Assembly: GCA_040880525.1 (NCBI GenBank)
Contig: JBBDIG010000048.1
Coordinates: forward strand, 1 to 64,000
DNA from: Bacteroidia bacterium
GTDB lineage: Bacteria > Bacteroidota > Bacteroidia > CAILMK01 > JBBDIG01
Reading direction: 5' to 3'
DNA length: 64,000 bases
Part shown: one piece after another, positions 14,080-23,885 of the stretch
Numbering within the stretch: the stretch's first letter is position 1
How the letters are laid out: every line of letters starts with the position of its first letter
Translations under genes and position numbers: made by a program
The notes under the pieces: generated by a model
Databases searched by the model: none
Seen by the model: only the letters and a program-made list of their open reading frames with translations
Told to the model about the DNA's origin: nothing

Positions 14080-14535
14080 TCAGGATTTTATTCGGGGATC
14101 GAAAAGGAAAGGTTCCGATTCCAGCAACGAGACAAAACGAAATTCTGGATGCAAAGGGTTGATCAGGACGTTATTTTCGCCTTTGATCAACGCAGACGGT
14201 ACGCGCAGCAGCAATGATGAAAGCGATGCAGCCCATCTGTCGCCAAAGGGCCGGCAAAGATCGTAAGCTGCCGGGTCTGACGCACTCCATCCCTCGTGCA
14301 ATTCCGGAATTTTCAAGGTATCGCAAAATATTTGATCCGGAACGTAAATCACCATAATGCGAAATGCTGCCAGAAGTGACACCTCATTATGATGAACAAT
14401 ATTTTCCAGGCATGCGAGAGAACGATGTGATGCAGTATAAATTACTCTGACACCCGTTGAATTCCAGCGTGCAGCGCGGCCAGAAGCCACGAGGTCGCCA
14501 GCCCACTTAGCCAATGTTATCCGGTAAAGCTCCAT
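14080..14535 (-). CDS. RES-domain toxin
   Basis: A 151-aa protein with the RES family core. The signature G-R-A-A-R-W-N-S-x-G-x-R-V-I-Y-T-A is at about residues 18-34, with the Arg and Tyr that characterise the fold, followed by S-L-A-C-L-E-N-I-V-H-H. The RES Ser/Glu positions also appear to be kept. Studied RES toxins degrade NAD+ or ADP-ribosylate metabolic enzymes, causing bacteriostasis. The ATG directly abuts the antitoxin stop codon (14536-14538), so the antitoxin is translated first, the usual order for Xre-RES type II modules. Length is normal and no lesion is visible, so it is probably active. Confidence 0.92.
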   Translation of the reverse strand: MELYRITLAKWAGDLVASGRAARWNSTGVRVIYTASHRSLACLENIVHHNEVSLLAAFRIMVIYVPDQIFCDTLKIPELHEGWSASDPAAYDLCRPFGDRWAASLSSLLLRVPSALIKGENNVLINPLHPEFRFVSLLESEPFLFDPRIKS

Positions 14536-15165
14536 TCAGGCAGTAGCTCCAAATTCAATCTTCAACAACTCCTCATAAATAAGGTCTATACCTGTGGAAG
14601 AACTAATATAAGAAAGAGGCGGCTTATTCCCCAGACCGTATGCAGGTTCAGCAAGCCATTTATTGAATTGCTCCCTGGACTGAAAAATCTCAATTCCTTT
14701 AAAATATAGCTCCTTTAATTTTATCATGGTTTCTACAGATCTTGTGGGCAGATACCTCTTTTCCTGCCGGTATGATGTCAAGGTTTTAGGCGTCATCTCA
14801 AAAACTCTTTCAGCCAAAACCTTAAGGGGCAATGCCGTGATTTTTAATAGTTCATCTATGAGAATATGCGAGGCTATGTTGCCTCCTAGTAAATTCAGGA
14901 GTTCGGCCTTGGAAATAGTTTCCTTATAACTGGAAATATAGGAAAGAACAGGCTCGTTCACTGTGATGGGGGCTTCTGGGGTCAGTTCAAAATTAGTTTC
15001 CTTATGCCCTGGGGAAAAAGATCCCAATCCTGATAGAGAGACAGGCTCTCCGGCATCTAGGGCACTTTTCACGGCCTTAATGAAAGATTCCAAAGCCTGA
15101 GCGGCCTCAACCTCTGTCAGGTTAGCATCTTTTGCCATTTTCTTTATTATATCAGACTTTTTCAT
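14536..15165 (-). CDS. RES-module antitoxin: HU-like N-terminus plus HTH and DUF2384 (MbcA/ParS/Xre)
   Basis: A 209-aa protein with two parts. Residues 1-55 read as an HU/IHF-type domain (MKKSDIIKKMAKDANLTEVE, A-L-E-S-F, V-S-L-S-G-L-G-S-F matching the HU V-G-F-G-S-F turn), followed by a short beta segment to about 80. The long DNA-intercalating HU arm (R-x-G-R-N-P) is missing. Residues ~90-209 are a typical Xre/MbcA antitoxin: an HTH (L-L-K-I-T-A-L-P-L-K-V-L-A-E-R-V), then DUF2384 with F-N-K-W-L, P-P-L-S-Y-I and the C-terminal G-I-D-L-I-Y-E-E-L-L-K-I-E-F-G that caps the toxin active site. The start was placed at the HU-like methionine; the frame is open 75 bp upstream but that stretch is not HU-like. 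Antitoxin function follows from the domain and the adjacency. The role of the HU-like part is unknown. Confidence 0.87.
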   Translation of the reverse strand: MKKSDIIKKMAKDANLTEVEAAQALESFIKAVKSALDAGEPVSLSGLGSFSPGHKETNFELTPEAPITVNEPVLSYISSYKETISKAELLNLLGGNIASHILIDELLKITALPLKVLAERVFEMTPKTLTSYRQEKRYLPTRSVETMIKLKELYFKGIEIFQSREQFNKWLAEPAYGLGNKPPLSYISSSTGIDLIYEELLKIEFGATA

Positions 15166-15251
15166 GCAGCATGTATTTTTACTCTTTTGAAGCCGTAAAT
15201 TTACTCCGATCTTCCCGGACTTCCAAACTTTCATCATCATTTTTCCTGGGG

Positions 15252-21017: not shown

Positions 21018-23885
21018 TTATATATCGGACGTTGCAATCTCCGGTTTCAATTTTTTTCTGAGGTACTGCGCGGTATAGCTGCTGGTTTCCTTCAGGATTT
21101 CCTCTGGTTTTCCCTGGAATACTAAATATCCGCCTTCTTCACCGCCTTCAGGGCCCAGGTCAATAAGCCAGTCGGCACATTTCATTACTTCGAGATTATG
21201 TTCGATTACCATTACGGTGTGTCCTTTTTCAATGAGGGCATTAAAAGCGGCCAGGAGATGATGAATGTCATGAAAATGAAGTCCGGTAGTGGGTTCATCA
21301 AAAATGAAAAGAATGTGGTTTTGGCTGTTACTTTTGGAAAGGAACGAGGCCAGCTTTATCCGTTGCGCCTCACCCCCGCTCAGGTTTGCTGACGATTGTC
21401 CCAGTTTCAGATAGCCCAGCCCTACCTGGCGGAGCGGCATCATATTACTTGTAATCTGAGGCACTTCATCAAAGAATTCAATCGCCTCATCTACAGTCAT
21501 TTCCAAAACATCATAAATGTTCTTGTCTTTATGAGTCACCTGCAGCACTTCTTCCTTGTAGCGCTTCCCATTGCATTTTTCACATAATAATGAAATGTCG
21601 GCCATAAACTGCATTTCCAGTGTAATAATGCCCTCACCACTGCACACATCGCAACGCCCGCCATCTACATTAAATGAAAAGAAAGCAGGTGTAAAACCAT
21701 GGATTTTCGCCAGACGCTGATTCGAGTACAATTCCCGAATGGGATCAAAAGCCTTTAGATAAGTTACCGGATTGGAACGGGAGGACTTCCCGATCGGATT
21801 CTGGTCCACATATTCTACCTGTGTAATTTGACGAAAGCTACCGCTTAAAGTGCTGAAGCTTTTGGAGCCTCCCGCAGCCTGTTGTGTGAGAGCAGGGTGG
21901 ATGATCTCCCTGACCAGCGTGGATTTGCCACTGCCGCTAACTCCCGTTACTACCGTGAGCGCTTCCAGCGGGAACCGAACGTCAAGATGCTTCAGGTTGT
22001 ATTTATGAGCTCCGGTAATTTCAACGAAATTATCGGGATCACGTCTTTTTGCTGGCAAAGGAATGCTTAGTTCGCCCGTCAGGTATTTACCTGTCAGGCT
22101 CTCGGGATCATTTTCCATGCTGGAAATATCTCCCTCAAAAATGACCTTTCCGCCATCTCTCCCGGCAAACGGGCCAATATCAATAATATAATCTGCGGCC
22201 CGCATGATATCCTCATCATGCTCCACTACTATCACGTTATTTTCCTGCTTCTTCAGGCGCTGCAATATGGTGATCAGCTTTTCCGTATCCCGTGGATGAA
22301 GGCCAATGCTTGGCTCATCCAGGATGTACATAGAGCCTGTAAGCGTGCTGCCCAGCGAAGTAACAAGCTGAATACGCTGCGATTCACCGCCTGATAATGT
22401 ACGGGATGCACGATTAAGGGTAAGATAGCCCAGTCCTACGTCCAGCAGGAAATTTATGCGGCTTTTTATTTCAACCAGAATTCGCCTGGAAATATCCTGC
22501 TCGCTTTTAGTAAGTTTAAGATTGTCAAAAAATTCATGAAGGTCTTTTACCGGCTTCACGACAAGTGCCGTAATGGGAACATTGTTGATCTTCACATAAG
22601 AAGCTTCCTTTCTCAGCCGGGTGCCTTCACATTCCGGGCATTTTGTTTTTCCCTTATACCGGGAAAGCAACACGCGATACTGGATTTTATATTGCTTGGA
22701 TTCAATGTACCTGAAAAACTCCCGAATACCGTCAAAATATTGGGTTCCTTTCCACAGTGCTTCCTTTTCATCCGCAGTCAATTGATTATACGGCCGGTGG
22801 ATCGGAAAGTTAGCCTTTGACGCAGCTTTGAGCAACTGGTCTTTCCATTCGCTCATTTTATTTCCTTTCCAGCAGGCTACAGCGTCTTCATAAACTGATA
22901 GCGAGGGATCGGGAATTACTTTTTCTTCATCAATGCCAATCACCATTCCGAAACCCTCGCATGAACGGCAGGCACCAAATGGATTATTAAAGGTGAAAAG
23001 GTTTGCAGAAGGCTCCTCGAATTCGATCCCATCGGCTTCAAAGCGATTAGAAAACTCTATCTGCTTTGGCTCATCTTCCGAAGGGTTTAACTCTATTATG
23101 CAGGTACCATGTCCTTCGAAAAAAGCTGTCTGTACAGAATCCGCGATGCGACTGTCATTGTCACGATCCTCATATTTAATGACAATCCTGTCTATCAGTA
23201 ATTGTGCTTCCTGGATAAATTTCTTGCTTATAATATCAAGCCCGGCTAATTCCAGCTTCGCTTCACTTTTGTCAGCTTCAAAAATGCTGATTACGTCTTC
23301 GATGCTGTATACTTTGCCTTTATGCGCTATGCGGGAGAAGCCTTTTTGAAGAATAACTGAAAGCTCCTTTTTAAGGTCGCGGCCCGGACCGGTAATAATA
23401 GGAGCAAGAATTTGTACCCTCATGCCCTCCTCCTGTTCCTTCAGGTAAGCGAGTACATTATCCACTGTATGTAGCTTCACCTCTTTTTCCGAAACAGGCG
23501 AATAGGTGCGGCCAATACGTGCATACAGCAGCTTGAGGTAGTCATAAATTTCAGTAGTAGTGCCGAGCGTAGAGCGCGGATTGTTGGTCTTAACTTTCTG
23601 CTGGATGGCAATAGCAGGAGACAGTCCCTTAATATAATCAACCTCTGGTTTATTGATCTTTCCGGTAAATTGCCGGATATAGGCTGAAAGGCTTTCTACG
23701 TATCTCCTCTGTCCCTCAGCGTATAAAGTATCGAAGGCCAGGGATGATTTGCCCGAGCCTGATACGCCCGTGATCACTACAAGTTTCTTTTGAGGAATTG
23801 CAAGATCAATGTTCTTAAGATTGTTCTGCCGTGCGTTTTTGATCAGTATAAATTCTCTTGGATCCAGATCCTGCAGTTTCTGCAT
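21018..23885 (-). CDS. uvrA: Excinuclease ABC subunit A
   Basis: A 955-aa DNA-damage sensor of nucleotide excision repair. It has two ABC ATPase modules: Walker A G-V-S-G-S-G-K-S-S (about 39-47) and G-V-S-G-S-G-K-S-T (about 645), with signatures L-S-G-G-E-S-Q-R-I and L-S-G-G-E-A-Q-R-I. The C-terminal zinc finger is complete (C-D-V-C ... C-E-K-C, about 745-780). In the first zinc-finger region only one C-x-x-C is present (G-A-C-R-S-C-E-G-F-G); the upstream pair is replaced, a pattern I associate with Bacteroidota UvrA. It is a single gene, divergent from the ECF sigma gene. Length is normal. Confidence 0.96.
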   Translation of the reverse strand: MQKLQDLDPREFILIKNARQNNLKNIDLAIPQKKLVVITGVSGSGKSSLAFDTLYAEGQRRYVESLSAYIRQFTGKINKPEVDYIKGLSPAIAIQQKVKTNNPRSTLGTTTEIYDYLKLLYARIGRTYSPVSEKEVKLHTVDNVLAYLKEQEEGMRVQILAPIITGPGRDLKKELSVILQKGFSRIAHKGKVYSIEDVISIFEADKSEAKLELAGLDIISKKFIQEAQLLIDRIVIKYEDRDNDSRIADSVQTAFFEGHGTCIIELNPSEDEPKQIEFSNRFEADGIEFEEPSANLFTFNNPFGACRSCEGFGMVIGIDEEKVIPDPSLSVYEDAVACWKGNKMSEWKDQLLKAASKANFPIHRPYNQLTADEKEALWKGTQYFDGIREFFRYIESKQYKIQYRVLLSRYKGKTKCPECEGTRLRKEASYVKINNVPITALVVKPVKDLHEFFDNLKLTKSEQDISRRILVEIKSRINFLLDVGLGYLTLNRASRTLSGGESQRIQLVTSLGSTLTGSMYILDEPSIGLHPRDTEKLITILQRLKKQENNVIVVEHDEDIMRAADYIIDIGPFAGRDGGKVIFEGDISSMENDPESLTGKYLTGELSIPLPAKRRDPDNFVEITGAHKYNLKHLDVRFPLEALTVVTGVSGSGKSTLVREIIHPALTQQAAGGSKSFSTLSGSFRQITQVEYVDQNPIGKSSRSNPVTYLKAFDPIRELYSNQRLAKIHGFTPAFFSFNVDGGRCDVCSGEGIITLEMQFMADISLLCEKCNGKRYKEEVLQVTHKDKNIYDVLEMTVDEAIEFFDEVPQITSNMMPLRQVGLGYLKLGQSSANLSGGEAQRIKLASFLSKSNSQNHILFIFDEPTTGLHFHDIHHLLAAFNALIEKGHTVMVIEHNLEVMKCADWLIDLGPEGGEEGGYLVFQGKPEEILKETSSYTAQYLRKKLKPEIATSDI

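Follow-up and report, generated by a model that had tools for sequence, protein, structure and literature searches.

Among described toxin-antitoxin systems, the closest to the locus analysed here is Xre-RES of Pseudomonas putida (6gw6, 9r35), in which a RES toxin is paired with an HTH/DUF2384 antitoxin whose gene comes first and whose promoter holds a palindrome. NatR-NatT of P. aeruginosa, VPA0769-VPA0770 (8gug), MbcA-MbcT (6fkg) and ParS-ParT (6d0h) belong to the same toxin and antitoxin families. In the window, by which we mean the whole 64,000-nucleotide stretch of DNA that was analysed, we find a module that shares all of these traits with the P. putida pair, together with a match in predicted fold. 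Unlike the P. putida Xre, which has no HU domain and whose dimer is unstable without toxin (PMC12204516), and unlike the matched chains of the other four systems, none of which has an HU module, the window antitoxin begins with a segment of HU. The locus is best read as an ordinary autoregulated type II RES/Xre toxin-antitoxin module with a degraded HU stub on its antitoxin, made up of the following parts:

14536..15165 (14539-15165 without the stop codon), minus strand: antitoxin of 209 aa, consisting of HU stub, linker and HTH/DUF2384 part (Pfam, NCBIfam)
15016..15165, minus strand: HU-derived stub, antitoxin residues 1-50, with alpha1, alpha2 and the first beta hairpin (PF00216, HU profile, Foldseek)
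15010..15015, minus strand: point between residues 51 and 52 at which the arm (18 aa) was probably deleted, a clean in-frame gap opposite ISKSRIATNPQTGKAIKI of the homolog L025 in alignment A1
14917..15015, minus strand: linker, residues 51-83, predicted to be disordered and holding a (T)VNEP motif (pLDDT, motif comparison)
14539..14916, minus strand: HTH and DUF2384 (Xre/MbcA/ParS) toxin-binding domain, residues 84-209 (NF049845, PF09722, Foldseek)
14080..14535 (14083-14535 without the stop codon), minus strand: RES-domain toxin of the ParT/Res/MbcT type, 151 aa (PF08808, NF049844, phmmer)

The antitoxin gene comes first on the minus strand and the RES gene follows directly, with the antitoxin stop codon abutting the toxin start codon; the antitoxin start at 15165 is backed by alignment with L025, which begins at the same residue. 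The toxin matches PF08808 in the Pfam search (E=1.9e-22), passes the NCBIfam cut-off for NF049844 (134.5 bits against 110) and matches ParT 6d0h by phmmer (E=2e-24) with the RWN, YxAS, VPS and LINPxHP active-site motifs aligned, giving it both the curated-threshold score and the active-site motifs that mark the RES toxins of type II RES/Xre systems. In the antitoxin, Pfam places PF09722 on residues 158-206 (E=3e-9; 37.1 bits against a cut-off of 24.5), the RES/Xre antitoxin family NF049845 covers residues 103-209 in the NCBIfam search with 78.9 bits, under its 90-bit cut-off, and the C-terminal part matches five solved antitoxins in Foldseek (8gug_B, 9r35, 8qnl, 6gw6 and 6fkg). The toxin is thus adjoined by an antitoxin with an HTH and an Xre/MbcA/ParS C-terminal domain, and the initial annotation, which had described an HTH/DUF2384 antitoxin with an HU-like N-terminal segment and a neighbouring RES toxin, had the arrangement and its coordinates right. 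Many RES antitoxins that lack HU, among them L006, L007 and L030-L033, likewise have a (T)VNEP-like motif close to the N-terminus, and the VFEMTPKTL stretch of the HTH is common to the window antitoxin, L025 and a third antitoxin, L026.

The HU homology of the N-terminus is far above chance. Pfam places PF00216 on residues 1-56, over its curated cut-off (E=3.3e-12), and against a profile of free-standing HU proteins the N-terminus scores 56.6 bits, compared with a maximum of 11.4 among 2000 shuffles. The N-terminal helix pair and GxGxF turn that characterize HU/IHF are both present, the turn as GxGSF, which bears out the observation from which the analysis began. Like solved HU proteins, to which it is about 29-37% identical over some 51 columns, the stub has a helix pair and first hairpin; unlike HU/IHF, it is armless and slightly acidic, is fused to an antitoxin, and has no confidently predicted third strand or C-terminal helix. 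Two other kinds of HU-fold module, HU-HIG (PF18291), which the Pfam description gives as HU fused to other domains, and the CCDC81 type (PF18175), match the window antitoxin under their curated cut-offs, and canonical HU scores best.

Structure prediction is in keeping with this assignment. A model built from a trimmed alignment of the window antitoxin, L025, eight HU-free antitoxins and six viral HU fragments has a pLDDT of 73.8 (alignment-free prediction was poor, at 50.6), with helices at residues 3-13 and 18-37, a short hairpin at 42-50 and a well-predicted HTH/DUF2384 part. The best Foldseek matches of the whole model are Xre/MbcA/NatR antitoxins, and those of the N-terminus are HU, with E. 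coli HU-beta (4p3v) fitting at an rmsd of 1.2 Å across 51 columns (probability 1.00); the E-values start at 0.03. Because HU sequences sat in the input alignment, the modelled fold depends in part on the sequence match, and it supports the HU homology rather than proving it independently. The pLDDT is below 50 at residues 47-83 and about 32-50 at 51-83, where the model is unstructured. Of the HU fold that had been proposed for residues 1-85, the part that stands is therefore residues 1-50, and the disorder past residue 50 suggests an HU part of about 50 residues, not 85.

The most informative relative of the window antitoxin is L025, from the Bacteroidetes MAG RYN_276 (contig G199:C25), which is homologous over its full length (51% identity in the best segment) and likewise has a RES gene directly after it. 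Its HU is complete with an NPQTG arm, matching PF00216 with 78 bits over positions 1-82 of 90. Both the beta-ribbon arm (NPxTG) and the basic charge of HU/IHF are present in L025 and missing from the window antitoxin, whose HU part has a net charge of -2, compared with about +11 in L025 and a median of +12 in free HU proteins. Since L025 bears a full HU with its arm, the arm was probably lost later from the window antitoxin, through the 18-aa deletion. The earlier description of an HU-like module without an arm thus fits the window protein as it stands, but not a module that was armless from the outset. With the arm gone and the charge at -2, it is unlikely that the window stub binds DNA.

Assembly chimerism was rejected as the source of the fusion, the same fusion being found in this other MAG, and L039 and L068 were rejected as further fused members, being on the same contig as L025. 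The L025 module adjoins a tRNA-Asn gene (L025 4692-4768), and the window module lies between rpe and a gene for a chorismate-binding enzyme; because these neighbourhoods differ, the module probably moves between genomes. An empty-site comparison did not find the neighbouring rpe in the same context in the order's other genomes. Elsewhere in the window, at 21018-23885 on the minus strand, lies a gene for an apparently ordinary UvrA-like protein (955 aa), in which UvrA interaction and DNA-binding domains are recognised.

In a tree of toxin plus antitoxin, the window module groups with L025 (SH-aLRT 96), next with the HU-free L026 (92) and next with L028 (95). In a tree of HU sequences, the window HU stands beside the fused HU of L025, with the free HUs from RYN_276's group close by; support for this placement is weak (72.6), and the end branch of the window HU is very long, at 2.86, against 0.45 in the toxin-plus-antitoxin tree. 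These trees fit a single fusion followed by arm loss and rapid change in the window copy, with an HU part that changes much faster than the rest of the module, a pattern with which decay is also compatible; there may also have been two fusions rather than one. The N-terminus of L026 scores 4.9 bits against the HU profile, ranking third among 82 antitoxin N-termini, and in a separate shuffle test 1 of 2000 shuffles scored equally high. This is suggestive only of a trace of an eroded HU helix pair in L026 (4914-5000). The start codon of L026 is apparently TTG.

RES antitoxins of Bacteroidota clearly do not carry HU as a rule. In our collection of antitoxin/toxin pairs, which is a biased sample, two of 82 distinct RES-linked antitoxins bear HU, namely those of the window and of RYN_276. 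Full-length matches occur in only two of 395 genomes of the class (G000 and G199) and, in a 288-genome sample of the phylum, only in the window's own genome. Further HU-bearing DUF2384 reading frames were not found in 12 genomes of the order, 36 of the RYN_276 order, 396 of the phylum and 395 of the class, samples that overlap and in which most reading frames of at least 200 aa were followed up; nor was a full-length fusion found in the phages, plasmids and viral contigs searched. An HU-antitoxin fusion was not found described in the literature searched, most subscription papers lying outside that search, which agrees with the initial annotation on novelty. Burroughs et al. reportedly surveyed the HU clades in 2017, and such a fusion may be mentioned there. 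The HU-bearing antitoxin is a new form of an otherwise known RES/Xre toxin-antitoxin system.

As in other type II RES/Xre systems, a predicted operator lies at the module's own promoter. Two palindromes in a tandem GTAN4TAC pattern are found just upstream of the antitoxin start codon:

15195..15204, minus strand: predicted operator palindrome 1, GTAAATTTAC
15173..15182, minus strand: predicted operator palindrome 2, GTAAAAATAC, 22 nt from palindrome 1

The promoter of L025 carries GTAATTTTAC and GTAAAATTAC and that of the HU-free L026 carries GTATTATTAC and GTAAATTTAC, each pair spaced by 22 nt. The window's 3.8-Mb genome holds a single copy of GTAN4TAC-N12-GTAN4TAC, and the fetched loci, about 583 kb in all, contain the pattern only in the promoters of the window, L025 and L026; when the three 150-nt upstream regions were shuffled with a first-order Markov model, it arose 0, 0 and 2 times in 20,000 shuffles. 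A stricter tandem form is present in 14 of 395 class genomes, and at the one locus examined per genome in 12 other class genomes the GTAN4TAC pairs had no RES or DUF2384 gene nearby. Because HU-bearing modules have this operator in common with the HU-free L026, it is most likely that the HTH, and not HU, sets DNA specificity.

Upstream of 28 of 81 RES modules (e.g. L029, L031, L082, L097, L113 and L133) there is a TGTC-N11-GACA-like palindrome, nearly always with N11 and expected about 0.03 times per region, which is likely the common operator of RES modules in Bacteroidota. The inner half-sites TAC-N12-GTA of the tandem pair (window 15173-15204; L025 4963-4994) have a 15-nt start-to-start geometry equal to that of TGTC-N11-GACA, and given this equality the GTAN4TAC pair may derive from the common operator by divergence and doubling. 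In L103 (G251), TGTCGTAATTTTACAGACA places a GTAN4TAC palindrome inside the common TGTC-GACA operator and is a possible intermediate. At window 15196-15227 on the minus strand, TTTG and TAAATTTA lie 20 nt apart in a promoter-like arrangement that overlaps palindrome 1 and resembles a Bacteroidota promoter (TTTG / TAnnTTTG); in L025 it is not seen at this spacing.

We propose that the RES toxin depletes NAD and that the DUF2384 tail of the antitoxin would neutralise it by plugging it, while the antitoxin HTH would repress the operon at the tandem GTAN4TAC operator. A complete HU would have been fused to the antitoxin N-terminus in the common ancestor of the window and RYN_276 modules. Later deletion of the DNA-gripping arm would have left the window copy with its helix pair and first hairpin, and this stub would hold two antitoxin chains together, stabilising the repressing complex. 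Taken as a whole, from autoregulated module through ancestral fusion and arm loss to dimer-stabilising stub, the account seems to us evenly poised between right and wrong. HU is itself dimeric, largely by way of its helix pair. The P. putida Xre forms an unstable dimer and is a monomer when isolated; proper repression requires the Xre dimer, within a 4:2 complex, and a tag at the Xre N-terminus breaks this dimer up (PMC12204516). Since the Xre dimer is weak and sensitive at its N-terminus, and HU is dimeric, a fused HU would be expected to act on the dimerisation step, and the added dimerisation surface that the initial annotation had put forward is plausible. Dimerisation by half an HU is uncertain because prediction confidence is low for the third strand and last helix, and the occurrence of the same operator in L026, with no recognisable HU, counts against a dimer-stabilising role.

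The chief rival is that the HU part is a functionless, decaying relic and that the module acts like any Xre-RES pair without it, a serious prospect that we nonetheless doubt. Decay would suit the deleted arm, the lost charge, the long HU branch and the possibly further-eroded stub in L026, whereas the frame is still open and the helix pair and GxGSF turn still clearly those of HU. Dimer stabilisation is favoured only slightly over such a relic, and the sequence hardly separates the two. It is unlikely that HU was captured as an obligate module for dimerisation or for sensing the nucleoid that shifts toxin release, either by making repression independent of toxin or by pairing with cellular HU. 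Pairing of the stub with the cell's own HU proteins, which would make the amount or stability of the antitoxin depend on the state of the nucleoid, appears in itself quite improbable: HU paralogs can heterodimerise, and three free HU-type genes in the genome score over the family cut-off, but the stub is only 30% and 27% identical to the genome's own HU over the matched stretches. Least probable is that HU makes the second contact with operator DNA that had been suggested early on, or bends the operator, for although the HU of L025 keeps its arm and positive charge, and P. putida Xre-RES may touch DNA at two places (PMC12204516), the window copy has neither arm nor positive charge and its operator is common to the HU-free L026. 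In the RYN_276 protein, HU may make such a contact.

RES antitoxins repress as dimers, and nature has provided a ready comparison: a fusion of a dimer-forming domain to an antitoxin, with the full HU in one sister and the helix pair in the other. Such a comparison could show how dimer stability sets toxin-antitoxin regulation, and the operators that these modules have in common offer direct DNA targets for binding tests. The locus is also a case of HU reuse outside chromosome packaging.
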